Shown piece by piece: positions 10,039 through 20,369 of a stretch of DNA of 37,382 nt. The translations under genes and the position numbers were made by a program. The stretch is from Pseudonocardia sp. (GTDB lineage: Bacteria > Actinomycetota > Actinomycetes > Mycobacteriales > Pseudonocardiaceae). The stretch spans positions 1 through 37,382 of the forward strand of contig NZ_JAOPWR010000394.1 of assembly GCF_025965585.1 (NCBI RefSeq). The letters run 5' to 3'. The first letter of the stretch is position 1. Each line of letters begins with the position of its first letter. The notes beneath the pieces are model-generated. The model searched no databases, was not told where the DNA came from, and was given only the letters and a program-made list of their open reading frames with translations.

Positions 10039-10884
10039 TCACTCCCCGCCCATCGCCGCCAGCATCACGTCGAGGACCGCCTGATCGGGGCACGGCGGCG
10101 GTGTGGTCCCGGCGAGTCTGCCGATCATGTCGAAGGCCTGCTCCACACGTGGCCCGTCGATCACCGGGCTGTGGCCGGAGATGATCGTGGACATCCCGTG
10201 GCTCCGCACCTCCTTGACGCAGGCCGCGTAGCGGGTCGCGTCGACCATGCTGAGCCACGGCGAGAGCGCGTGGATGCCGAACATGACCATGCCGCCCCAC
10301 CACGCCTCGGGGTCGACGTCGGCGATCGTGTCGGCGGGTGCCACGCCCGGGCCGCCGGGCACCGGCGAGGCGAACGCGTCGGCGGCCCAGTAGACGCCGG
10401 TGGAGGTGTCGTAGAGACCGCGGGTGGCGGGGGAGTCGTAGACGGGCGGGCGCAGGGCCACGAGCATGCGGTCCCCGGCGTCGAACGACTCGCCGTCGTT
10501 GAGCCAGCGGCAGCGCTGCAGCGGGAACTCGTAGGCGTTGGCGAAGCGCTCCACGAGCGTCCAGCTGCAGACGAGCCGCGCGTTCGGGCAGGCGTCCATC
10601 ACCTGGCTGAGGTTGCCGGTGTGGTCGGAGTCGTCGTGGGTGAGGAACACCCATCTGACGTCCTCGGGCTCCACCAGGCCGAACACGTCCTGCAGCCATT
10701 GCTCCCGGTTCCGGGCGCTGCCGGTGTCGACGACGATCGGCTCGGCGCCCTGGATGACCGCGGAGTTGAGGTACACCGACAGAGGCGCGCCGAGTGCGTG
10801 CTGGACGTCCTGGATCACGTAGGTGCCGGGGCCGACCTTCTTCGGGGCCTGGTGCACGGTGGGGACGGCATCGAGGAGGGACAT
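10039..10884 (-). CDS. MBL-fold metallohydrolase, last gene of the catabolic operon
   Basis: This 281-residue metallo-beta-lactamase-fold protein has the metal motif THDDSDHTGN (residues 82-91), giving HxDxDH instead of the usual HxHxDH. Acidic replacement of the second histidine is known from the diiron (flavodiiron/ODP) branch of the fold, so a di-iron site is as likely as zinc. A later GHSP supplies another metal ligand. In a catabolic operon it may act as a thioesterase, lactonase or oxygen-reactive iron protein. The ATG at 10884 is preceded by a purine-rich site; the gap to the CoA ligase gene is 29 bases. Confidence 0.82.
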   Translation of the reverse strand: MSLLDAVPTVHQAPKKVGPGTYVIQDVQHALGAPLSVYLNSAVIQGAEPIVVDTGSARNREQWLQDVFGLVEPEDVRWVFLTHDDSDHTGNLSQVMDACPNARLVCSWTLVERFANAYEFPLQRCRWLNDGESFDAGDRMLVALRPPVYDSPATRGLYDTSTGVYWAADAFASPVPGGPGVAPADTIADVDPEAWWGGMVMFGIHALSPWLSMVDATRYAACVKEVRSHGMSTIISGHSPVIDGPRVEQAFDMIGRLAGTTPPPCPDQAVLDVMLAAMGGE

Positions 10885-10913
10885 GGTCGTCTCGCTTCCG
10901 GGTGGCAGTGGTG

Positions 10914-12422
10914 CTAGGCGCGTGCACGTTCCTCGATGTCGACCTCGGCGGCGGTGCGCTCGGTCGGGAGCTGCTTCTTGGCGATCTTCTGGGTCTCGGT
11001 CAGCGGCCAGGTCTCGACGAACTCGACGTAGCGCGGCCGCTTGTAGGGCGGCAGCCGTTCCGCGCACCAGTCCCGGAGCTCCTCGGCGGTGACCTCACCG
11101 CCGGGGCGCACCATGACGAACGCCTTGACGTCCTCCTCGGTGAGCGGCGAGGGCACGCCGATCACCGCGCTGGACGACACCGCCGGATGGGCGTCGAGGA
11201 CGACCTCGACGTCGGCGGGGGACAGGTTCTCCCCGCGGCGGCGGATCAACTCCTTGACCCGTCCCGCAAAGAAGTGGTTGCCGGCCTCGTCGATCCGTGC
11301 CAGGTCGCCGGTGTGCAGCCAGCCCCCGCGCAGTACGTCGGCCGACTGCTCGGGCATGCCGTAGTACCCGGGCGTGGTGGCCGGGTTGCGCAGCTGCAGC
11401 TCACCGACCTCGCCGGGGGCCACCTCCTCGCCGGTGGACGGGTCGACGACGCGCGAGCTGTTGACCGTGCCCAGGCGCGGGTGCTGGCGCGGGCGGCCCA
11501 TCGAGCCGTAGGCGGGCGGCTCGTCCACGGGGCAGATCAGCCCGTACGGCGACTCGGACAGCGCGTAGCCGATCACCAGCCGGAAGCCGAACCGCGCCGT
11601 GATCTCCTCGTGGCGCTCCCGGTGCGGCGCGGGTGCGGAGTAGCAGTACCGCAGCCGGTGCTCGCGCTCGACCGGCGACGGGTCGCGGGCCATCAGGATC
11701 TCGACCATCGCGCCGATCGCGTTGAACACCGTGGCGCCGGTGTCGCGGACCGTCTCCCAGAACGTGCTCGCCGAGAACTGCGGCAGCAGCACGAGCTGCG
11801 CGCCGCAGCACCACGACCCGAGGGTGGAGTAGGCCTGTGCGTTGAGGTGCGAGAGCGGCAGTGTCGTGAGCAGCACGTCGTCGCTGGTCAGCTGCAGCCA
11901 GTACGGGTAGCCCTCGGCGGCCATCGTGTACATGCCGTGGGTCTCGATGATGAACTTCGGCCGTCCGGTGCTGCCCGAGCTCTGGATGTAGGACGCGGGC
12001 TGCTCCGGCGTGGTGGCCGCGGGTGCCGCGGGCTCGGCACACAGCAGCGCGGCGACGTCGGTGCACGCCACACCGTCGGGCACCGCGGTGCCGGCCGGCG
12101 CGACGACGAGCCTCGCCCCGGTCTCCTCCAGCACCGCCGCGAGCTCCGACTGCGCCGCCTTCGGGTTGACGGCGACGCTGACCGCGCCGCTCAGCACCAC
12201 GCCCAGCCAGGCCCGGAGGAAGTCGAGCCCGTTGGGCAGCACGATCACCACGTGGTCGCCGGGCGACACCCCGCGCTCCCGCAGGCCGCCGACGCAACGG
12301 AGCGCATCGGCGTGCATCTCCGCCCGGGTCGCCTCGCCGTCGGGCGTGCGGCACCACGGCTCGTCGGGCCAGCGCTCCACGCCCTGGGCGAGGAGCTCGG
12401 AGAAGGTCAGGATGTCGGGCAC
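10914..12422 (-). CDS. AMP-forming acyl/aryl-CoA ligase
   Basis: This ANL-superfamily adenylate-forming enzyme of about 502 residues activates a carboxylic acid as its AMP ester and then as CoA thioester. The phosphate loop is SSGSTGRPKF (about 148-157), the A8 hinge is FAGRVKELIRRRGENLSPAD, and the C-terminal lysine region is PLTETQKIAKKQL, with QK where many ligases have GK. The middle part (TLPLSHLNAQAYSTLGSWCC) resembles carnitine/crotonobetaine-CoA ligase (CaiC) and related carboxylate ligases rather than long-chain fatty acid ligases. Two in-frame GTGs lie at 12428 and 12422; the second is chosen because AGGAG is five bases upstream, whereas it overlaps the first. It likely supplies the CoA thioester for this pathway. 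Confidence 0.9.
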   Translation of the reverse strand: MPDILTFSELLAQGVERWPDEPWCRTPDGEATRAEMHADALRCVGGLRERGVSPGDHVVIVLPNGLDFLRAWLGVVLSGAVSVAVNPKAAQSELAAVLEETGARLVVAPAGTAVPDGVACTDVAALLCAEPAAPAATTPEQPASYIQSSGSTGRPKFIIETHGMYTMAAEGYPYWLQLTSDDVLLTTLPLSHLNAQAYSTLGSWCCGAQLVLLPQFSASTFWETVRDTGATVFNAIGAMVEILMARDPSPVEREHRLRYCYSAPAPHRERHEEITARFGFRLVIGYALSESPYGLICPVDEPPAYGSMGRPRQHPRLGTVNSSRVVDPSTGEEVAPGEVGELQLRNPATTPGYYGMPEQSADVLRGGWLHTGDLARIDEAGNHFFAGRVKELIRRRGENLSPADVEVVLDAHPAVSSSAVIGVPSPLTEEDVKAFVMVRPGGEVTAEELRDWCAERLPPYKRPRYVEFVETWPLTETQKIAKKQLPTERTAAEVDIEERARA

Positions 12423-12430
12423 GGGCACTC

Positions 12431-12811
12431 CTATGCGGCGAAGACGGGCGTGGTGTCGACGTGGATCCGCTGCTCACGGCACCGGCCGTCCGCGGCGAAG
12501 GCGAAGAAGCACCCCCCGCGAACGGTCACCTCCTTGCCGTCCAGGCGGGTGTAGACCACCTCGCACTCGAAGGCGATGAGGTCGTCCTCGAGCTGCCACG
12601 TGCCGTGGAGGATGTGGCGCCAGCCGCCCACGCTCGCGCGCAGTCCGGTCAGGGCCTCACGGATGCCGTCGCGGCCCTCGATCGGGTCGGCGTTGGCGAA
12701 GACCATCCGGGCGTCCTCGGTGAACATCGCCATGAACGTGTCGGTCTCGACGGCGTCGATCGCCCGGTAGTAGTCGCGCAACCAGGCCTGGTACTGCTCG
12801 GTCACCTGCAT
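12431..12811 (-). CDS. SnoaL-like (NTF2-fold) protein
   Basis: This 126-residue protein has the cone-shaped NTF2/SnoaL fold pattern: an N-terminal helix pair (QYQAWLRDYYRAIDAVETDT), then FMAMFTEDARMVFANADPIE, then beta strands ending in HVDTTPVF. Family members include isomerases, dehydratases, aldol cyclases and non-catalytic subunits; the sequence alone does not choose. It follows an oxygenase gene by 26 bases and precedes the CoA ligase by 8 bases. The same oxygenase-SnoaL order is repeated upstream at 15462-16667 and 14998-15465, which suggests a working link between each pair. Confidence 0.82.
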   Translation of the reverse strand: MQVTEQYQAWLRDYYRAIDAVETDTFMAMFTEDARMVFANADPIEGRDGIREALTGLRASVGGWRHILHGTWQLEDDLIAFECEVVYTRLDGKEVTVRGGCFFAFAADGRCREQRIHVDTTPVFAA

Positions 12812-12837
12812 GGTCGTCTCCGGTCTCGGCGAAGGGT

Positions 12838-14049
12838 TCAGAGCAGGGGGGAGTTGGGCGCCAGGCCGGCCAGCGCGCGGCCGTGGAACTCCAGGCCGGT
12901 GGTGGGCGACATGATCGCGTGGACCTTCAGCGCGGCGGCGTCACGCGCGAGGCGCTGCATCGGCGAGCTCTTGTGGATCGCCGAGGCTCCGGACGCGGCG
13001 CGCAGGATCTCCACGGCCTCGGCATAGAGCTGCGTGGCGTAGGCGACCTGGCCCCAGATCTGCGCGTGCTCGCCCTCGGCGTACGGGACGTCGTCGGCGG
13101 CGTGCCGGTCGACGATGTCGGCGGCCTCGAACGTCAGGGCGTCGGCGGCCCGGATCCGCAGCGCGGCCTCGGCGGCCTGGTGGTGGCGGATCGGGGCCGT
13201 GCTCTGGTCGCCGTAGCCGGTGTAGGTGATGGGCCTGCCGGACTTCAGCTTGCCGATGAAGAACTCGAGCGCGGCCTTCGCGACCCCGGGGAGCCCCGAT
13301 GATCCGGTGGTGAGGATCGTCGAGATGATCGGGGTGCGGTAGAGCGGCGTGCCGGCGTTGCGCACGGTCGCGAACCTGCCCTGCTGGGCGTCCGCGAAGT
13401 GCATCATCCGGTCGGCGGGCACCCAGATGTCCTGGCCGGTCACGGTGTTGCTGCCGGTGCCACTCAGCCCGCTGGTCTGCCAGTCGTCGAGGATCGTCAT
13501 GCCCTCGTAGGGCACGAGGAACATGCCGAAGCCCGGCGCGTCGGACTCGGGGTCGATGACGGCGCTGCGGATGGCGTAGGTGGCGTGTGCGCACCCGGTG
13601 TTGAACGGCCAGCGACCCGAGAGGCGGTAGCCGTCGCCGTCGGAGACCGCGACGGTGCCGCCGAGCGGGAACGACACCGTGATCCGCACGTCCGGGTCGG
13701 CGAAGACCTCGTCCTGGACGTGGTCGGGGAGCAACGAGGTGAACTGGGTGCCGTCGCTCCACAGCGCGGCGACCCACGCCGTCGACGAGCAGCCCTGGCC
13801 CAGCTCCCGGCAGACCTCCACCTTGGTGCGGGTGTCGGCCTCATAGCCGCCGAAGCGGCGGGGGAGCGTCAGCCGCAGCAGGCCAGCGTCCTGCAGCGCC
13901 TGGACGTTCTCCACGGGCAGCTTCTGCTCCTGCTCGCAGCGCTCGGCGTTGCGGCGCAGCAGCGGCACCAGCGCCGCCGCGCGGGCGACGAGCTCCTCGC
14001 GGCCCGGAACCTCGGTTCCGACCGGGTCGTCGATCGTGGATGTGCTCAC
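12838..14049 (-). CDS. Flavin-dependent oxygenase of the acyl-CoA dehydrogenase fold (HsaA/HpaB-like), copy 2
   Basis: The 403-residue protein has the acyl-CoA dehydrogenase fold in the branch of two-component flavin monooxygenases (group D; relatives HsaA, HpaB, DszC). Pointers to that branch are WPFNTGCAHATYAI in the middle domain, the LSGTGSNTVTGQDIWVPADR segment, and a C terminus ending in GLAPNSPLL. Such enzymes use reduced FMN or FAD from a separate reductase to hydroxylate a phenol-like ring or oxidise a carbon; none is encoded in the window. The GTG at 14049 has AGGAGG six bases upstream. It is a clear paralogue of the product of 15462-16667. An intercistronic hairpin lies just upstream. 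A true acyl-CoA dehydrogenase is the main alternative. Confidence 0.85.
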   Translation of the reverse strand: MSTSTIDDPVGTEVPGREELVARAAALVPLLRRNAERCEQEQKLPVENVQALQDAGLLRLTLPRRFGGYEADTRTKVEVCRELGQGCSSTAWVAALWSDGTQFTSLLPDHVQDEVFADPDVRITVSFPLGGTVAVSDGDGYRLSGRWPFNTGCAHATYAIRSAVIDPESDAPGFGMFLVPYEGMTILDDWQTSGLSGTGSNTVTGQDIWVPADRMMHFADAQQGRFATVRNAGTPLYRTPIISTILTTGSSGLPGVAKAALEFFIGKLKSGRPITYTGYGDQSTAPIRHHQAAEAALRIRAADALTFEAADIVDRHAADDVPYAEGEHAQIWGQVAYATQLYAEAVEILRAASGASAIHKSSPMQRLARDAAALKVHAIMSPTTGLEFHGRALAGLAPNSPLL

Positions 14050-14081
14050 GGCGGTCCTCCTCGTCGAGGCGCGGCGAACCG

Positions 14082-14112
14082 GCCCGGGACCCGCAGCGGT
14101 TGCGGGCCGGGC
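14082..14112 (-). terminator. Strong intercistronic hairpin (attenuator or processing site)
   Basis: The arms GCCCGG (14082-14087) plus CCCGCA (14090-14095) pair with TGCGGG (14101-14106) plus CCGGGC (14107-14112), leaving a GA bulge and the loop GCGGT. That is 12 G/C-rich pairs in the 88-base gap between the isomerase-like gene and the second oxygenase gene. No T-run follows on the minus strand, so a full terminator is less likely than partial attenuation or an RNA processing or stability element. Confidence 0.6.
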
Positions 14113-14137
14113 GACGGGTTCGGCGTCGTGGGTCTGG

Positions 14138-14977
14138 TCAGATGGTGAAGAAGAGCTTGCGGAAGGAGTCGATCGAGTTCTGGTCACCGCTCGCGGCGCC
14201 ACCCTGCAGGCGCTGGTAGACGTCGAGGCAGAACTCGTTGCAGGGGAAGGCGAACGTCGCGTCGGCATTCTCCGGGGCGCCGGGCGCGAAGGTGAGGGCG
14301 TTCTCCTTGACCTGCACGGTCCAGTGCTCGTCGCCGGAGGTGGTGATGTGAACATCGATCGTCAGGTCCACGCCGTCGGCCACCTCGGGGGCGAAGCAGA
14401 TCTGCATCAGCCCGAACATGAAGGGCACCAGGGTGTCCGACGCCTCGGTGTCGACGAAGGCGTCCCGGCCCAGCGCCTTGCGCAGGTCCCAGGCGTGCAC
14501 CGAGTAGTCCATGAGCTGGAACGCCGCCATCATGAACGCCGGCACGGGTCCGACCCACTTGTGCGGCACCAGCCGGCCGGCCCACTCGTCCTCGGGGACG
14601 TCCTCGAAGTAGCGGAACAGCAGGTCGGTGCAGGCCTCGAGGCGGCCCAGCACCTCCCAGCGGTAGACGCCGCGGTACTCCCGCGCACTCTGCCCCAGCG
14701 CGTCGCCGTAGGCCCGCATCCCGCGGGGCTCCTCGGTGGGCCAGCCGTGCTCGCCCTGCTTGAAGTAGCCGAGGTAGCAGTAGGCGGCGTCGAGCAGGTG
14801 GCCTGCCATGTCGCGGACCTCCCAGAGGTCGCACGGGGTCTGGGCGTGCCACTCCTGCTCGCTGGCGGCCACCAGCATGTCGAAGCAGACGCGGAACTCC
14901 TGCCGGACCAGCCGGATCATCGTGTTCTTGCCGGCGGGCTGGGTCACGTCGACGCGGGTCGGGACGGTCGAGGTCAT
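14138..14977 (-). CDS. Maleylpyruvate-isomerase-family (mycothiol-dependent, DinB-like) protein
   Basis: This 279-residue protein has the MDMPI_N metal-binding four-helix domain: TPCDLWEVRDMAGHLLDAAY with His60, and MDYSVHAWDLRKALG with His161 and Asp164, matching the family's metal-site pattern (HL and HxWD). The C-terminal part (PENADATFAFPCNEFCLDVY) is the SCP2-like domain usual in this family. Family members isomerise ring-cleavage products with mycothiol as cofactor, or transfer mycothiol to other electrophiles. In this operon it could isomerise a ring-fission product. ATG 14977 follows GAAGGAGTCCCC. It lies 20 bases after the SnoaL-like gene. Confidence 0.85.
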   Translation of the reverse strand: MTSTVPTRVDVTQPAGKNTMIRLVRQEFRVCFDMLVAASEQEWHAQTPCDLWEVRDMAGHLLDAAYCYLGYFKQGEHGWPTEEPRGMRAYGDALGQSAREYRGVYRWEVLGRLEACTDLLFRYFEDVPEDEWAGRLVPHKWVGPVPAFMMAAFQLMDYSVHAWDLRKALGRDAFVDTEASDTLVPFMFGLMQICFAPEVADGVDLTIDVHITTSGDEHWTVQVKENALTFAPGAPENADATFAFPCNEFCLDVYQRLQGGAASGDQNSIDSFRKLFFTI

Positions 14978-14997
14978 GGGGACTCCTTCGGGACGGG

Positions 14998-15465
14998 TCA
15001 GCAGACGGGGACGTCGATCTGGCGGAGCCAGTCGTCGCGGTCGTAGAGGGTCTTCACGGAGATGACGGCTTCGCCGCGGGTGCGGATGACGACGACACCG
15101 GGCAGCGAGAAGCGCTGGCCCGCACCGCGGTGGACGCGGCCGCGCCAGGTGAGCTCGCCGGTGAACGTGCCGGCGAACACCACCTCGGCGAGCACCGCTC
15201 CGTCCCCGGCCGCCGCGGGGGTCGAGACCAGGCCCATGGCGAGGCCCGGGAAGGTGACGGTGGTGGTGCGCAGGAAGTGCGCCACCGCGGCGTCGCGGGA
15301 CCGCGCGGGCTCCGGGCGGAACATCGAGTGCACCTCGACGTCGTCGCCGAGCACCTCGCGCAGGGCGGGGACGTCGCCGGACTCGTGGGCGTCGTACCAC
15401 CGGTCGAACACGGCGAGCGCGTCGGCCGGCTCCACGGCGGTGTCGCCCACGGGTGCGGCACTCAC
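14998..15465 (-). CDS. SnoaL-like (NTF2-fold) protein
   Basis: This 155-residue NTF2/SnoaL-fold protein has an N-terminal helix DALAVFDRWYDAHESGDVPA, then VLGDDVEVHSMFRPEPARSR, and barrel strands through to IDVPVC. It starts at GTG 15465, overlapping the oxygenase stop (GTGA), so the two are translated together. It is only distantly similar to the other SnoaL-like protein at 12431-12811. Likely roles are isomerase, dehydratase or lactone hydrolase on the oxygenase product, but a catalytic residue set cannot be fixed by eye. Confidence 0.82.
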   Translation of the reverse strand: MSAAPVGDTAVEPADALAVFDRWYDAHESGDVPALREVLGDDVEVHSMFRPEPARSRDAAVAHFLRTTTVTFPGLAMGLVSTPAAAGDGAVLAEVVFAGTFTGELTWRGRVHRGAGQRFSLPGVVVIRTRGEAVISVKTLYDRDDWLRQIDVPVC

Positions 15466-16667
15466 AGCATTGGGGTGTTCGGTTCGAGCCCGCACAGCGA
15501 GCGGCCGTAGATCTCGATACCGGTGGTCGGCATCATCACGGCGTGCGTCGCCAGTGCCTGGGCGTCGCGGGAGACGAGCTGGATCGGCTGGCTCTCGTGG
15601 ATGCCGCTGGCCCCGCTGGCGTGGCGCAGCGTCTCGATCGCCTCGCCGTACAGGCGTGTCGAGTACGACACCATGCCCCAGATCTCCGGGATCTCGCCGG
15701 GGGCGTAGGGCTCGCCGGACTGCGCGTGGCGGCTGAGGATGTCGGCGGCACCGGACATCAGGTGGTCGCCCGAGCGGATCTTCATCGAGGCCTCGGCCAC
15801 GTGGTGATGGGTGATCGGCGCCTCGCTGCGCTGCCCGTAGCCGGTGTAGGCGATCGGGCCGCGGGTGGGCAGCCGCTCCATGAACAGTTCGAGCGCCGCG
15901 CTCGCCAGCCCCGGGAACGTGCCGCCGCCGCTCGTGAGGACGTAGGGGACGGCCGGGATGGTGTAGATCGGCCGGTCCTTGTTGCGTTCGCTGCGGCCCT
16001 GTCCGAGCTTGAGCTCCTCCAGGCGCAGCATGCGCTCCTCGGGGACGAACACGTTCTCCCCGACCACGCTGTTGCTGCCGGTGCCGCGCAGGCCGCTGAC
16101 GTGCCAGTCGTCGAGGATCGTGAGGTCGGCGTAGGGCATGAGGAACAGGCAGACCTCGGGCCTGCCCGCCTCGAGCTCGACGACGGCGGGCTCGGTGACC
16201 CAGGTGCCGTCCAGGCAGCCGGAGTTGAACGGCCATTTGCCGTTGAGCCGGAAGCCGGCGCCGTCGCGCTCGGCGCGGGCCGTGGGGATCAGGGTGGCGG
16301 TGCAGTGCACCGACGGGTCCCCGTCGCCGTAGACCTGTTCCTGCACCTCGTCGGGGAAGTGGGCGATCAGGAAGTCGGCGTCGGAGTAGAGGGTGGCCAC
16401 CCACGCGGTGGAGCCGCAGCCGCGGGCCAGCTCCCGGAAGATCCCGAGCTTGGTGTGGGTGTCGATCTCGTAGCCGCCGTACTCGCGGGCGCGGGTCGCC
16501 CGCAGTATCCCGGAGTCCTCGAGTGCCTTCAGGTTCTCCTTCGGCATCCGGCGCTCCGCGTGGGCCTGCGGCGCGTTGGCCCGCAGCATCGGCACCAGGT
16601 CGGCGGCCCGCTGGATCAGCTCGGCACCGGCGGAGGCCGCGGTCGGGCGTTCGGCCAGTTCGGTCAT
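15462..16667 (-). CDS. Flavin-dependent oxygenase of the acyl-CoA dehydrogenase fold (HsaA/HpaB-like), copy 1
   Basis: This 401-residue paralogue of the protein at 12838-14049 shares segment after segment: LRANAPQAHAERRMPKENLK, KWPFNSGCLDGTWV, LDDWHVSGLRGTGSNSVVGE, VFVPEERML, PIAYTGYGQRSEAPITHHHV and the C-terminal GLEPNTPML. These fit group D two-component flavin monooxygenases more than acyl-CoA dehydrogenases. It is the first gene of the operon; ATG 16667 has AAAGGAGTGGGAC before it. The 486-base upstream region carries three copies of a TTGTATnCGA-like element that may bind the neighbouring GntR regulator. No flavin reductase gene is nearby, so reduced flavin must come from elsewhere in the genome. 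Confidence 0.86.
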   Translation of the reverse strand: MTELAERPTAASAGAELIQRAADLVPMLRANAPQAHAERRMPKENLKALEDSGILRATRAREYGGYEIDTHTKLGIFRELARGCGSTAWVATLYSDADFLIAHFPDEVQEQVYGDGDPSVHCTATLIPTARAERDGAGFRLNGKWPFNSGCLDGTWVTEPAVVELEAGRPEVCLFLMPYADLTILDDWHVSGLRGTGSNSVVGENVFVPEERMLRLEELKLGQGRSERNKDRPIYTIPAVPYVLTSGGGTFPGLASAALELFMERLPTRGPIAYTGYGQRSEAPITHHHVAEASMKIRSGDHLMSGAADILSRHAQSGEPYAPGEIPEIWGMVSYSTRLYGEAIETLRHASGASGIHESQPIQLVSRDAQALATHAVMMPTTGIEIYGRSLCGLEPNTPML

Positions 16668-16875
16668 GTCCCACTCCTTTGTGGACGTGCGTCGTGGACG
16701 TGGCGCGGACGGCGCCCGTCCCCGGGCACGGTGGCGCCCGCCCCGGGACGGAGCGCTGGGTCCCGATGGCTGACACCGCGCGGTGGCTGTCGGGTGATCG
16801 CATCCGGGACCGAGAGCGTCGCGGGCACTCGGTGTACCGGCCGCCAGCTTGTGGAAGCGGGTGTATCACCCTGTG

Positions 16876-16885
16876 TTGTATACGA
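16876..16885 (+). promoter_or_regulatory. Putative GntR operator, TTGTATACGA
   Basis: TTGTATACGA is a near-palindrome and the best copy of a motif found five times in the two promoter regions of the catabolic island. The GntR/FCD family commonly binds such short TA-centred palindromes. Assignment to the neighbouring regulator is inference. Confidence 0.45.
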
Positions 16886-17075
16886 GCTGACGGTAACGAG
16901 GGTCACAGTGGGGCGTCAAGAGCTTCGTGGGATCCGGTTGCGTGAGCGGGTTCGCCCCGCCTCGTGAACAGGTGCAATGCGGTACGGCAGCCTGTCGGCC
17001 TCGGGTCGGGATGCTGTGTGGCGACGTCGTGGGCGTCGAGGACGCGCAGGGGTTTCCGGCCGACAGAGAGCCCGA

Positions 17076-17085
17076 CTGTGTACGA
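17076..17085 (+). promoter_or_regulatory. Putative GntR operator, CTGTGTACGA
   Basis: It shares TGTRTACGA with the copies at 16876 and 17120 and lies 44 bases from the latter, about four helical turns, which would suit two dimers on one DNA face. Confidence 0.4.
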
Positions 17086-17119
17086 ACTGCCGTGAACGTA
17101 GTCAGGACGAAGACACGAG

Positions 17120-17129
17120 TTGTGTACGA
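17120..17129 (+). promoter_or_regulatory. Putative GntR operator, TTGTGTACGA
   Basis: This third copy of the element upstream of the oxygenase operon lies 25 bases beyond the 3' end of the GntR gene (17154). Confidence 0.4.
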
Positions 17130-17153
17130 TTCCCGGCGCTGGTGCCGATCAGC

Positions 17154-17843
17154 TCACGCGCTGGCGAGCCCGCTGTCCCCGAGTTCGGGGGCCTGCCGCT
17201 CCTGCTCCATCTGCCGCAGTGACCAGCGGCCGGCGCGCAGGTGGGCGCGCATGGCCCCCTCCGCCCAGTCGCCGTCGCCGACCTCGAGCGCCTCGAGGAT
17301 CTCGCGGTGCGAGGCGAAGGCCCGCTCGAGGTCGGTGGGGGTGTGGTGGTGGAAGGCCTCGCGGACGAACGGCGTGGCGAGCAGCGTGGGGATGATCGCG
17401 ATCAGCTGGCGGTTGCGGGACGCCTGGTTGAGCGTGACATGGAAGTCGATGCAGAGCCGGCCGATGTGCTGCAGCTCCGGCTCGCCCGCGCCGGGCAGCA
17501 GTTGCTCCATCTCGGTGCACATCACGCTCAGCGCGTCGAAGTCGACGTTGTCGCGGGCCTGCGCCGCGCGTCGCACGCCGTAGCCCTCCAGCAGTACGCG
17601 CAGGTCGTAGATGTCGTCGAGGTCCTGCGCGGTCCACCCGACGACCAGAGCGCCGCGGTTGCGCAGGATCTGCACCAGGCCCTCTGCCTGCAGCCGGTGC
17701 AGCGCCTCGCGCACGGGCGTGCGGCTGACGCCCGCGGCGGCGGCCACGTCCTCTTCGCGCAGCCAGCTCCCCGGCGGGTACTGGCCGTTCGCGATGCCGC
17801 GCTGCAGGGCCTCGTAGGCCGCTGCTCGGGCCGAGCTCGCCAT
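17154..17843 (-). CDS. GntR-family regulator with FCD domain
   Basis: This 229-residue regulator has an N-terminal winged helix (YPPGSWLREEDVAAAAGVSR then TPVREALHRL, the canonical SRTPVREAL recognition helix) and a C-terminal all-helical FCD ligand domain. Histidines in FHVTLNQASRNRQL, HREILEALE and MRAHLRAG match the metal/ligand site of FCD proteins. It probably represses the operon at 16667 and the divergent genes at 18137 until a pathway acid or CoA ester binds. ATG 17843 is chosen for GGAGG five bases upstream and agreement with its paralogue at 19665; ATG 17861 is possible. The segment GWTAQDLDDIYDLR is almost identical in both regulators. Confidence 0.9.
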   Translation of the reverse strand: MASSARAAAYEALQRGIANGQYPPGSWLREEDVAAAAGVSRTPVREALHRLQAEGLVQILRNRGALVVGWTAQDLDDIYDLRVLLEGYGVRRAAQARDNVDFDALSVMCTEMEQLLPGAGEPELQHIGRLCIDFHVTLNQASRNRQLIAIIPTLLATPFVREAFHHHTPTDLERAFASHREILEALEVGDGDWAEGAMRAHLRAGRWSLRQMEQERQAPELGDSGLASA

Positions 17844-17900
17844 GCAGACCTCCGTCGTCATGCCCTGTAGCCATCCCACCACACCGAGCAGGGACCCTGA

Positions 17901-17910
17901 TTGGATACAA
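17901..17910 (-). promoter_or_regulatory. Putative GntR operator, TTGTATCCAA
   Basis: This copy of the shared element is on the minus strand, about 60 bases upstream of the regulator start, where a bound protein could block its promoter. Confidence 0.4.
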
Positions 17911-18041
17911 GCGTACGACACGGTGGGGGATCTTGTGTGTCTCGTGGTGGTGGGGAAGTGGCTCTGACGTCGTGATACATCCACTCAGGGATTGACCGAC
18001 CGGACGACTTCACGGGGAACTCTTGTTCTGGTTCCTCCGCC

Positions 18042-18051
18042 TCGAATACAA
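18042..18051 (-). promoter_or_regulatory. Putative GntR operator, TTGTATTCGA
   Basis: This copy of the shared element is on the minus strand, about 85 bases upstream of the VOC gene start. Confidence 0.4.
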
Positions 18052-18136
18052 TTTCGCCGCCGCTGGGTGGCCGTCTGCCACCCCCGCTCCGTTCCGGGGC
18101 CAGGCCACCGCTCCGCCGCACCTGCAGGAGGACGAC

Positions 18137-18631
18137 ATGACCGCCATCAACTACGCGGGTCTCAACCACCTCGCGCTCGTCACGAACGACATGGACAAGA
18201 CGGTGCGGTTCTATCGCGACGTCCTGGGCATGCCGCTCGTCGGCACGACGGGCAACCGCGACGAGAACTACCCGCACCGGCACTACTTCCTGAGCATCGG
18301 CCGCGGAGCCTCGATCGCGTTCTTCGAGTGGAAGGACATCGAGCTCCCGGGACGCAAGGACTCCGGCATCCCGGCGTCGGGCATCCAGTTCGACCACGTG
18401 TCGATCAGCGTCGACTCCGACGAGGACCTGGAGAACCTGCGCAAGCGCCTGCACGACGCCGGCTCCGACGTCAGCGACGTCGTCGACCACGGCCTGCTCC
18501 GGTCGGTCTACGCCACCGACCCCAACGGGATCTCGATCGAGTTCTCGGTGCCGGCCCGCGACCTGGACGCCGACCCCTGGTTCGACGACGCCGACCCCGT
18601 GGCCGCCGTGCGGGAGAAGCAGGCCGGCTGA
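18137..18631 (+). CDS. VOC-superfamily (glyoxalase/extradiol dioxygenase-like) protein
   Basis: This 164-residue vicinal-oxygen-chelate protein has two beta-alpha-beta-beta-beta modules. Likely metal ligands are His11 (GLNHLALVT), Glu64 (AFFEWKD), His87 (FDHVSIS) and Glu135 (ISIEFSV), which fits either a glyoxalase-type HEHE site or a His-His-Glu iron dioxygenase site. The hydrophilic C-terminal tail after residue 140 is longer than in glyoxalase I. In a pathway with two hydroxylating oxygenases a ring-opening dioxygenase or an epimerase/isomerase would make sense. ATG 18137 follows CAGGAGGACGAC. The lyase gene follows after 6 bases. Confidence 0.85.
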   Translation: MTAINYAGLNHLALVTNDMDKTVRFYRDVLGMPLVGTTGNRDENYPHRHYFLSIGRGASIAFFEWKDIELPGRKDSGIPASGIQFDHVSISVDSDEDLENLRKRLHDAGSDVSDVVDHGLLRSVYATDPNGISIEFSVPARDLDADPWFDDADPVAAVREKQAG

Positions 18632-18637
18632 CCCCTG

Positions 18638-19429
18638 ATGGCGATCTTCGAGGACGATCACCCGCCGATGACCACGTCGATCGGGCGGTCCACGGCCGAC
18701 GACATCTGGGTGCAGGGGTACAACCTCGCCGACGAGCTCATGGGGGAGGTCGACTTCGGCAGCGTGTTCTACCTGTTGATCACCGGCCGGCTGCCGACGC
18801 CCGGCGAGGCGAGGATCTTCAACGCCGTGCTCGTCGCGCTGGCCGATCACGGCCTGACCCCCACGGCGCTGGCCGCCCGGCTCACCTACACCGGTGCACC
18901 GGACTCGATCCAGGGCGCGGTCGCGGCCGGGGTCCTCGGCGCCGGGTCGGTGTTCCTGGGGGTCTTCGAGGACGCGGGCCGAGTGCTCACTGCGGCGGGG
19001 CCGACGGAGGCGTCGAGCGACGCCGATCTCGACCGGTTGGCCGCCGCGGTGGTGGAGGAGCACCGGGCCCGTGGGGCGCGGATCCCCGGCCTGGGGCACC
19101 CGTTCCACAAGAACGGCGACCCCCGCACGGCACGCCTGCTGGCCATGGCCCGCGAGCACGACGTGCTCGGCCCGCACACCCGGCTGATGCTGCGCGTGCA
19201 GGAGCGGGCCACGTCGCCGTCGGGCAAGCCGCTCGCGCTCAACGCGGGCGGGGCCTGCGGCGCGCTGCTGTGCGACCTCGGGATCGACACCGCGGTGCTC
19301 CGCGGCGTGGCGGTCGTCTCGCGGGCGGCGGGCGTGGTCGGGCACCTGGCGGAGGAGGCGCGCGCGCCCATGGGCCGCACGCTCTGGTACATGGCCGAGC
19401 GCGAGGCCACGTACCAGGCGCGGCGGTGA
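18638..19429 (+). CDS. Citrate-synthase-fold lyase (citryl-CoA lyase-like)
   Basis: This 263-residue protein matches the short citrate synthase-like/citryl-CoA lyase proteins, which make or break the bond between an acyl-CoA carbon and a keto acid. GLGHPFHKNGDPRTARLL (from residue 151) corresponds to the citrate synthase GxGHxxYKxxDPR motif with catalytic His154, and His71 in LADHGLTPT fits the first active-site histidine. Where relatives have a catalytic Asp (NVDG-like), this one reads LNAGGACGALL, so the acid/base Asp seems to be missing. It may catalyse a retro-aldol or Claisen cleavage of a CoA thioester made upstream. Its stop overlaps the next small frame (GTGA). Confidence 0.8.
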   Translation: MAIFEDDHPPMTTSIGRSTADDIWVQGYNLADELMGEVDFGSVFYLLITGRLPTPGEARIFNAVLVALADHGLTPTALAARLTYTGAPDSIQGAVAAGVLGAGSVFLGVFEDAGRVLTAAGPTEASSDADLDRLAAAVVEEHRARGARIPGLGHPFHKNGDPRTARLLAMAREHDVLGPHTRLMLRVQERATSPSGKPLALNAGGACGALLCDLGIDTAVLRGVAVVSRAAGVVGHLAEEARAPMGRTLWYMAEREATYQARR

Positions 19430-19620
19430 CCGGTCCGCTCGACTGCGTGCTCGTGCTCGAGGGTGTGCCGTTCCACTCCCACGACACCCGCAACACCGGC
19501 TACGCGACCGCGGTGGCCGCGGTGCAGGCCGGCGTCCACGTCCTGGACGCCGGCCTCGACCCGCCCGCGCTCCTCGGCCGCGCGGGTGGGTCTCCGCAGC
19601 GTGGTGCCCGTGCGCGATGA
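19426..19620 (+). pseudogene. HMG-CoA-lyase-like fragment (64 residues)
   Basis: From a GTG that overlaps the lyase stop (GTGA), a 64-codon frame reads MTGPLDCVLVLEGVPFHSHD and on through TRNTGYATAVAAVQAGVHVL. This matches the metal-binding strand of HMG-CoA lyase-type TIM barrels (HxHDT followed by AxxxALxAGVxxxD); the metal histidines would be His17 and His19. Both the N-terminal barrel strands and the C-terminal Gly/Cys loop are absent, so it cannot be a working lyase by itself. Its TGA overlaps an ATG (ATGA) in frame with the next regulator. It is either a decayed gene kept as a coupling frame or a small protein of new function. Confidence 0.5.
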
Positions 19621-19664
19621 TGTCCGGCGATCGGGAAGGGTCGGACGGCGGGGGAGGGACCGGG

Positions 19665-20369
19665 ATGGCGCGTGCCGCGGACATGGCCTACGAGACCATC
19701 CAGAACGCCATCGTCACCGGTGAGTACGCGCCGGGCAGCTGGCTGCGCGAGGAGGACCTGGCCGAGCGCGCCGGGGTGAGCCGCACCCCCGTCCGTGAGG
19801 CGCTGCGCCAGCTCAACATCGAGGGCTTCGTGGAGATCGTGCCCAACCGGGGCGCCCTCGTTCTCGGGTGGACCGCCCAGGACCTGGACGACATCCACGA
19901 CCTGCGGGCGCTCCTGGAGGGTTACGCCGTACGTCGCGCGGCCGAGGACCCCGGCACCGACCTCGCCGCGCTGGGCGAGCTCTGCGACGAGATGGAACGA
20001 CTTCTCGAGGAGCACGGGGACGCCCGGTTCCCCCGGATCGGGGAGCTCAGCTCCGAGTTCCACACCGCCATCTACCAGTCGTCCGGGAACCGCCAGCTCA
20101 TCGCCGTCATGCCGTCGCTGATCCAGATCCCGCTGGCGCGCGAGGGCTACCACCAGCGCACGCGCGAAGCGATCGTGCGGAGCCTGGCCCAGCACCGCGA
20201 GATCCTCGACGCCCTGTCGGCGCACGACGCGGACTGGGCCGAGTCGGCCATGCGGGCCCACATCCGTGCAGGCCGCACGTCGTTGCGACGGCAGGGCAGA
20301 TGGGCGGAGGAGGGGACAGGGCAGGAGCAACCGGCCGCCGACGCCTCGATCGAGGCCGGCGAGGTGTGA
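19665..20369 (+). CDS. GntR-family regulator with FCD domain, second copy
   Basis: This 234-residue paralogue of the regulator at 17154-17843 has a winged helix (YAPGSWLREEDLAERAGVSR, then TPVREALRQL) and an FCD domain with EFHTAIYQSSGNRQL, HREILDALS and MRAHIRAGR histidine positions. The stretch GWTAQDLDDIHDLRALLEGY is nearly the same in both copies, which speaks for duplication within this locus. ATG 19665 is preceded by GGGGGAGGGACCGGG; ATG 19617 in the same frame overlaps the preceding stop but adds a glycine-rich leader with no counterpart in the paralogue. The two regulators may sense different intermediates or form heterodimers. Confidence 0.9.
   Translation: MARAADMAYETIQNAIVTGEYAPGSWLREEDLAERAGVSRTPVREALRQLNIEGFVEIVPNRGALVLGWTAQDLDDIHDLRALLEGYAVRRAAEDPGTDLAALGELCDEMERLLEEHGDARFPRIGELSSEFHTAIYQSSGNRQLIAVMPSLIQIPLAREGYHQRTREAIVRSLAQHREILDALSAHDADWAESAMRAHIRAGRTSLRRQGRWAEEGTGQEQPAADASIEAGEV

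Follow-up and report, generated by a model that had tools for sequence, protein, structure and literature searches.

Gene content and organization of the island

Contig NZ_JAOPWR010000394.1 of the draft genome (6.8 Mb) of a Pseudonocardia sp. (assembly GCF_025965585.1), analysed over its entire length of 37,382 bases and referred to below as the window, carries at positions 10039-20369 a real, conserved gene island that is not matched to a described pathway: seven packed minus-strand genes lie opposite the genes of a VOC protein and a citrate-synthase-fold protein, with one GntR/FCD regulator on each arm. A preliminary description of this DNA had listed nine enzyme genes and two regulators in this layout; all of them are present, with families backed by Pfam and NCBIfam, and its view of the locus as a catabolic-type cluster is also supported. 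The island is read here, tentatively and with somewhat less than even confidence, as a two-armed, GntR-controlled catabolic unit for a phenolic compound, with hydroquinone-type ring cleavage and a late coenzyme A (CoA) step. No description of the gene set was found in the titles or abstract openings of the literature searched, a coverage outside which most subscription papers lie. The genes are as follows.

10039-10884, minus strand: MBL1, MBL-fold protein of flavodiiron/ODP type, 281 amino acids (PF19583 ODP, 49.2 bits; Lactamase_B, 34.8 bits)
10914-12428, minus strand: LIG, AMP-forming acyl-CoA ligase, 504 amino acids (PF00501, 191 bits)
12431-12811, minus strand: SNO1, SnoaL_2-like protein, 126 amino acids (PF12680, 52.3 bits)
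12838-14049, minus strand: OXB, predicted oxygenase component of a group D (HsaA/XiaF-type) flavin monooxygenase, 403 amino acids (HsaA model; XiaF in PDB, 168 bits; tree)
14138-14977, minus strand: MDMPI, mycothiol-type protein of the maleylpyruvate isomerase family, 279 amino acids (PF11716, 49.6 bits; TIGR03083, 61.8 bits, cut-off 50)
14998-15465, minus strand: SNO2, SnoaL-like protein, 155 amino acids, overlapping the end of OXA by 4 nucleotides (PF12680, 41.5 bits; PF07366, 40.7 bits)
15462-16667, minus strand: OXA, second predicted group D flavin monooxygenase, 401 amino acids, 49.7% identical to OXB (HsaA model, 213.6 bits)
17154-17843, minus strand: GntR1, GntR/FCD regulator upstream of OXA on the same strand (PF00392, 65.1 bits; PF07729, 76.5 bits)
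18137-18631, plus strand: VOC, single-domain VOC protein, 164 amino acids, proposed ring-cleavage dioxygenase (sequence, profile, fold, invariant residues)
18638-19429, plus strand: LYA, citrate-synthase-fold protein of the NCBIfam family 'citryl-CoA lyase' NF004868 (341.3 bits, cut-off 193)
19617-20369, plus strand: GntR2, GntR/FCD regulator, possibly starting at ATG 19665 (PF00392, 68.7 bits; PF07729, 81.0 bits)

In order of transcription, the minus-strand genes from OXA onward are SNO2, MDMPI, OXB, SNO1, LIG and MBL1, with successive intergenic gaps of -4, 20, 88, 26, 2 and 29 nucleotides. Pfam cut-offs are passed by LIG, SNO1, SNO2, MDMPI, MBL1, VOC, LYA, GntR1 and GntR2. A codon-bias frame list holds nine of the eleven genes, MDMPI and SNO2 being located in longer frames removed by its filter. 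The preferred starts are GTG 14049 for OXB and ATG for MDMPI (14977), MBL1 (10884), VOC (18137) and GntR1 (17843).

The flavin oxygenases

On profile scores and phylogeny, OXA and OXB are assigned to the group D flavin monooxygenases of the HsaA/XiaF type, which have the acyl-CoA-dehydrogenase fold. The HsaA model (NF045629) scores 213.6 bits with OXA and 221.6 bits with OXB, both under its cut-off of 450, and an HpaC2-type model scores 174 and 155 bits, against 37 and 54 bits for the best acyl-CoA-dehydrogenase model; the PDB matches are XiaF, HsaA and HpaC2. In a tree of 22 rows, the split between 19 oxygenases and three acyl-CoA dehydrogenases is fully supported, and the long branches flagged by the tree tool affect details of the tree more than this split. 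Assignment of OXA and OXB as acyl-CoA dehydrogenases is ruled out by these scores and the tree. The two had previously been called HsaA/HpaB-like, and grouping with true acyl-CoA dehydrogenases had been named as evidence against this; they do not group so, and the HsaA part of the name stands, whereas the HpaB part falls, the HpaB Pfam family having zero matches in the Pfam scan of the window proteins. The earlier remark that no flavin reductase is present holds for family PF01613, which has no match on the contig and seven elsewhere in the genome (other reductase families were not searched). Reduced flavin can be supplied by other reductases (review, PMC6165268).

OXA is 57-58% identical to proteins on the sphingomonad plasmids pDC02, pMEA01 and pMEA02 (strains DC-6 and MEA3-1), and groups with those of pDC02 and pMEA01 in the tree (support 100/99). 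The title of a paper in the reference list of PMC7773584 names strain MEA3-1 in connection with degradation of 2-methyl-6-ethylaniline. These relatives might indicate a pathway for chloroacetanilide- or aniline-derived hydroquinones, as on the sphingomonad plasmids, acquired for a xenobiotic. Such an origin is considered quite unlikely: 58% identity is insufficient to fix a substrate, and in the 21-25 kb around the plasmid genes close relatives of the other window genes are lacking (a CaiB relative in L027 reaches 31%). The OXA relatives on the sphingomonad plasmids (L025, 11420-13146; L026, 11387-16622) have transposases around them, and the gene occurs on two plasmids of strain MEA3-1. Its neighbourhood on pMEA01 includes genes for an iron-type dehydrogenase, a flavin reductase and a Phenol_MetA_deg protein as well as an FCD fragment. 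On pDC02 the OXA relative adjoins a VOC-like fragment (33% over 57 residues; no Pfam match).

Conservation in Pseudonocardia and a smaller core

Scanned by pattern for OXA, 84,980 named genomes gave four loci with 70-86% identity, each in Pseudonocardia, and 17 further loci at 38% or less. A search with MDMPI of 62 genomes of the genus matched six, the genome's own included, and added a single new locus (L041, in genome G397) to those of P. acidicola (L004), P. bannensis (L005), P. oceani (L006) and P. hydrocarbonoxydans (L007); at E <=1e-40, MDMPI is matched in 4 of 397 genomes of the order, again counting the host. The nine enzyme genes and GntR1 stand in the window's order in P. acidicola, P. 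oceani, P. hydrocarbonoxydans and G397, and GntR2 follows the LYA side in the latter three but lies beyond MBL1 in P. acidicola. Because the downstream genes of P. oceani, P. hydrocarbonoxydans and G397 are 97-99% alike, these three are counted as one lineage. The P. bannensis locus has its genes rearranged, lacks a match to SNO1 and has a more distant LYA (46%). Co-conservation of the enzymes in other genomes, which the preliminary description had proposed as a check, is borne out by this distribution.

A smaller gene set occurs elsewhere. In G023, which belongs to another family, MBL2 (a Lactamase_B protein absent from the window) and a GntR gene lie opposite VOC, MDMPI, CaiB, SNO2, LIG and LYA, with no OXA or OXB homologue in the surrounding 31 kb (the rest of the genome was not searched). 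In G100, G519 and G481, VOC (divergent in G481, 37%), LIG, LYA and MDMPI are found within about 4 kb, and no OXA or OXB homologue within the 13-20 kb around them (the rest of these genomes likewise not being searched). The MDMPI search had led to the cores of G023 and G100, the LYA search to those of G519 and G481. Since VOC, MDMPI, LIG and LYA are found together in these four genomes, these genes can move independently of the oxygenases; the latter look like an addition in the Pseudonocardia form. Genome G356 has an MDMPI homologue (34%) with no other island gene in 19.9 kb, and a Nonomuraea record has MDMPI (36%) and VOC (44%) homologues about 10 kb apart without LYA.

Proposed ring cleavage and isomerization

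By sequence, profile and fold, the closest solved relative of VOC is 9u42, titled homogentisate 1,2-dioxygenase, which scores far ahead of the other VOC relatives; no publication on it turned up in the literature search. Residues H11, H87, E135 and Y125 are invariant in 29 of 29 aligned sequences, as is H49. We take H11, H87 and E135 to form the 2-His-1-Glu metal site and Y125 to be the active-site Tyr, so that the residue pattern of the type I (VOC) class is present, and the best reading of VOC is a candidate Fe-type single-domain ring-cleavage dioxygenase. Ring opening by VOC followed by isomerization, as set out in the preliminary description, is likewise the best reading of the likeness to 9u42 and of the conserved residues, but it is not proven.

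Several observations weigh against this reading and against VOC as a member of the core. VOC also scores with FosB and GlxI, FosB being level with MhqO, and thiol transferases have the same fold; FosA-type proteins use a similar metal triad. VOC is also often found outside the core: of its 12 matches other than its own (E <=1e-28, 394 genomes), ten had their surroundings inspected, and LYA was nearby only in G519, so that VOC is a weak marker of the core. An AMP-ligase homologue occurs within about 4 kb of the VOC homologue in eight of these ten stretches, at 46% identity in G519 and 27-30% in the other seven. The VOC homologues of G535 and G505 (L098 and L099), at 73% identity and with no LYA nearby, each adjoin a second, divergent VOC gene and lie near an AMP-ligase homologue, and in G505 a partial MDMPI match is next door.

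The scores with FosB and GlxI would be accounted for if VOC were a thiol-dependent enzyme and, together with MDMPI, itself of a thiol-dependent family, and the GloB-like MBL2 of the relatives, carried out a mycothiol-linked conversion or detoxification of a reactive carbonyl or quinone. The MBL2 gene is the neighbour of LYA in P. oceani, P. hydrocarbonoxydans and G397; in L042 its neighbour is GntR. Yet the top relative of VOC, well ahead of the rest, is titled as a ring-cleaving VOC dioxygenase; the first-module metal position of glyoxalase I has no conserved Glu in the VOC alignment, as we read it; and VOC and MDMPI are kept both in the window, which is without MBL2, and in P. acidicola, where only residues 1-111 of MBL2 are matched. 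Such a thiol route is therefore judged doubtful, if worth keeping in mind, and VOC is treated below as a putative ring-cleavage dioxygenase.

MDMPI is classified by its profile matches in the mycothiol-dependent maleylpyruvate isomerase family, with isomerase activity predicted: it passes the TIGR03083 and MDMPI_N (PF11716) cut-offs, and all 11 sequences compared share H60, D157 and H161. In this metal-binding triad, Asp stands where the characterised enzyme has Glu. No PDB relative of MDMPI was found by phmmer at E <=0.1. A hydrolase of the FAH type is absent from the cluster, and the host genome has 13 FAA_hydrolase matches.

VOC was also considered as a possible stand-in for the homogentisate dioxygenase in genomes that have HPPD but no canonical HgmA. 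HPPD is present in 15 of 17 chosen genomes and HgmA_C is matched in eight, five of the eight at less than 40 bits; absence of HgmA_C says little, because it is found at E <=1e-20 in only 18 of 197 genomes of the class. HPPD and FAA_hydrolase genes are close together in G496 (contig C85) and G519 (contig C7), so that these two genomes likely have a homogentisate cluster of the ordinary kind in which the dioxygenase is divergent.

The CoA ligase and the citrate-synthase-fold protein

The LYA family has 49 matches in 394 sampled genomes of the class, 47 of which have a match at E <=1e-50. In 30 LYA loci inspected, the flanking 1.5 kb contains a CaiB homologue in 20 and a LIG homologue (44-48%) in seven, so that one or the other homologue adjoins LYA in 27 and neither does in three, the window's own locus included; this count comes without a base rate, and both partners belong to large families. 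Ligase and CoA transferase look like alternative means of making the substrate of LYA. Because LYA neighbours one or the other in 27 of 30 loci, and because the core occurs without the oxygenases, CoA activation is probably late in the route.

The preliminary description had placed activation first in its working order: an acid would be turned into its CoA ester, two hydroxylations and ring opening by VOC would follow, and isomerization and C-C cleavage by the lyase would end the route. With the ligase acting first and both hydroxylations on the ester, this would resemble the box or paa pathways. Co-conservation of the ligase and the citrate-synthase-fold protein with the oxygenases in Pseudonocardia would agree with such an order, as would the AMP-ligase homologues near VOC homologues in 8 of 10 stretches elsewhere. 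It is nevertheless unlikely, and a late step fits better: the stretches inspected in G023, G100, G519 and G481 contain ligase, lyase, VOC and MDMPI but no OXA or OXB homologue; the 27 of 30 lyase loci tie the ligase to the lyase; and no requirement for CoA esters is known for HsaA, HpaC2 or XiaF.

Cleavage of a C-C bond by LYA, another step of that earlier order, is doubtful because the Asp expected for it is missing throughout the family. The Asp of the NVDG motif is the catalytic general base of the citrate-synthase fold. In 41 of 41 members of the LYA family, the window's included, the Asp of NVDG/NVDF is replaced by Ala, Gly or Thr, and in none of the 41 is there an Asp within three columns of this position; the alignment references, citryl-CoA lyase (6hxp) and ATP-citrate lyase (6qcl), and citrate synthase (8rjk), aligned pairwise, all have it. 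All 41 retain the PGxGH His and the DPR Arg. At the first His site, 40 members have Phe, as does ATP-citrate lyase, and one has Tyr. From this pattern, the NF004868 family is probably misnamed 'citryl-CoA lyase', and automatic annotation of the family, which was found in 47 of the 394 sampled genomes of the class, may be wrong. A second gene of the LYA family (50% identity) is present in the host genome (G000:C141:11801-12547).

The flavodiiron-like protein MBL1

The best PDB matches of MBL1 are flavodiiron proteins (flavorubredoxin, 7r0f/4d02). Residues H83, D85, D87, H88, D150, D169 and H238 are invariant in eight of eight sequences, and in place of the hydrolase motif HxHxDH the window and five Pseudonocardia relatives have HDDSDH, with HDDVDH and HPDRDH in one sequence each. 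The earlier label of MBL hydrolase is doubtful, because the nearest solved relatives are flavodiiron proteins. A structure model of MBL1 was poor (mean predicted local distance difference test score 47) and was not used. In G489 an MBL1 homologue (58%) directly precedes a VOC homologue (L110, 8635-10057), with OXA, OXB, MDMPI and LYA absent from the surrounding 19.9 kb. The pair suggests that MBL1 and VOC may work together.

Operator-like sites

The intergenic stretches of the window and of the P. acidicola, P. oceani, P. hydrocarbonoxydans and G397 loci yielded a 10-bp palindrome, TYGTAYACRA. The motif scan placed the following sites, none assigned a strand, in the intergenic stretches of the window.

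16876-16885: palindromic operator-like site TTGTATACGA, upstream of OXA; the same site precedes OXA in P. oceani, P. acidicola and P. bannensis
17120-17129: operator-like site TCGTACACAA, downstream of GntR1 and upstream of OXA; also in P. oceani
17901-17910: near-match operator-like site in the GntR1-VOC interval; TTGTATCCAA also in P. oceani and P. acidicola
18042-18051: second near-match operator-like site in the GntR1-VOC interval

With up to one mismatch and palindromes counted twice, the window has 14 matches where 2.6 are expected, nine of them in the two intergenic stretches around GntR1, a count that is partly circular because the window was used to draw the motif. Two loci that were not so used also have matches. 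P. bannensis has 12 where 1.5 are expected; one perfect site precedes OXA and another directly precedes the SNO2 match. G023 has seven, a total that 1 of 200 shuffled sequences attained, and among them is one perfect palindrome between GntR and VOC. The operator-like sequence TCGTATACAA represents candidate sites for GntR1 and GntR2. This distribution fits control of both arms by GntR-family regulators, whose binding is predicted.

Genes lost from the window

In P. oceani, P. hydrocarbonoxydans and G397, LYA is followed by genes for MBL2 (Lactamase_B), a family III CoA transferase, a DHBP-synthase/GTP-cyclohydrolase-II-like protein, an HMG-lyase-like protein and GntR2; an RraA-like gene comes next in the two named species, and G397 matches only 30 residues of the RraA-like protein. 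In the window, the genes from MBL2 to HMG-lyase are gone from the LYA-GntR2 interval, except for one remnant.

19426-19620, plus strand: 195-nucleotide frame, predicted scar comprising a CaiB-like CoA-transferase start and two HMG-CoA-lyase-like pieces (HMGL-like, 17.5 bits, under the cut-off of 29)

The start of this frame, read by eye, resembles a CoA transferase (GPLDxVxVLE), and it continues as residues 209-234 and 287-309 of the P. oceani HMG-lyase protein, in an alignment with a 52-residue gap. By these matches it is identified as the scar of a deletion of genes that are intact in P. oceani, P. hydrocarbonoxydans and G397. P. acidicola also retains just the 111-residue match to MBL2. Because the enzymes of the two main arms were kept while these downstream genes decayed, the latter are not needed for what remains under selection. 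The catabolic operon of P. oceani includes one gene (L006, 4257-5273) of DHBP-synthase plus partial GTP-cyclohydrolase-II-like type. Perhaps it provides an extra supply of flavin for the two flavin oxygenases.

The gene complement of the relatives bears on whether the island is a biosynthetic or tailoring cluster, in which HsaA/XiaF-type oxygenases and SnoaL-like proteins would make or modify a natural product. Homologues at 38-42% from Streptomyces plasmids do lie in apparent natural-product clusters, where SnoaL-like proteins are common. None of the 12 scanned frames of 10039-20369, however, matches a carrier-protein, ketosynthase, non-ribosomal peptide synthetase or exporter family, and GntR/FCD control together with the CoA-transferase, HMG-lyase and RraA-like genes of the relatives fits catabolism better; a biosynthetic role is very unlikely.

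Proposed pathway

The proposal starts from observed gene content, families, conservation, operator-like sites and residue patterns, from which every reaction, its order and its substrate are inferred. OXA and OXB, using reduced flavin from a reductase encoded elsewhere, would convert a phenol by hydroxylation into a ring of hydroquinone or hydroxyquinol type, which VOC would open to a maleyl-type product. The MDMPI-like enzyme would isomerize this product from cis to trans with mycothiol, and the SnoaL-like proteins and the flavodiiron-like MBL1 may act on intermediates. LIG would activate the resulting acid late in the route, and LYA would act on the CoA ester so formed. If true, the island would unite three elements in a combination new in actinobacteria: hydroxylation of a phenol by flavin-dependent enzymes, ring cleavage by a small VOC protein and a lower pathway that depends on CoA.

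A bolder version is possible but rather unlikely as a whole: a new aerobic route in which a VOC diphenol dioxygenase and a mycothiol-dependent maleyl isomerase would feed a dedicated CoA ligase, the CoA ester being handled non-hydrolytically by an Asp-less citrate-synthase-fold enzyme from a widespread, misnamed family with a new reaction, paired with ligases or CoA transferases across many catabolic clusters. The Asp-less 'citryl-CoA lyase' family is the part likeliest to surprise.

Comparison with known systems

The oxygenases resemble the two-component group D enzymes HsaAB, HpaC2 and XiaF in fold and profile (26-33% identity; more than 200 bits with the HsaA model for both OXA and OXB), but differ in falling below the HsaA cut-off (214-222 against 450 bits), in occurring as two paralogues and in having no PF01613 reductase beside them. 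In the scheme proposed for VOC and MDMPI, a maleyl isomerase would act on the product of a diphenol dioxygenase, as in gentisate and homogentisate breakdown: VOC is like 9u42, and the cluster has an MDMPI member, which implies a cis-trans isomerization. Unlike these pathways, the island has a CoA ligase and a citrate-synthase-fold protein, and two flavin monooxygenases upstream. MBL1 shares with the flavodiiron/ODP proteins the MBL core, the H-x-D-x-D-H motif and a later Asp and His, whereas its 281 residues leave no room for a flavodoxin domain, the Glu of HxExDH is Asp, and the His of LHWPD is replaced by Tyr-Asp (D150).

LYA belongs with citryl-CoA lyase, the CCL module of ATP-citrate lyase and citrate synthase by fold family, by the NF004868 cut-off and by the PGxGH His and the DPR Arg; it departs from all three in that its family has Ala, Gly or Thr for the NVDG Asp. 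On Rhodococcus plasmids, CoA transferases are paired with 'citryl-CoA lyases' of the same LYA family, so that a partner forming CoA esters likewise adjoins LYA, but there the CoA transferase replaces the ligase, and the hydroxylases in the vicinity, which carry the annotation FAD-dependent oxidoreductase or 3-(3-hydroxyphenyl)propionate hydroxylase, are not of the HsaA type. On the plasmid of R. rhodochrous BX2 (L047, 4922-10798), VOC, FAD-dependent oxidoreductase, NTF2-like and alpha/beta hydrolase genes lie opposite a CoA transferase and a LYA homologue, the whole group flanked by ring-hydroxylating dioxygenase genes; the presence of a VOC gene and an FAD-dependent oxidoreductase near the LYA homologue is a likeness to the island.

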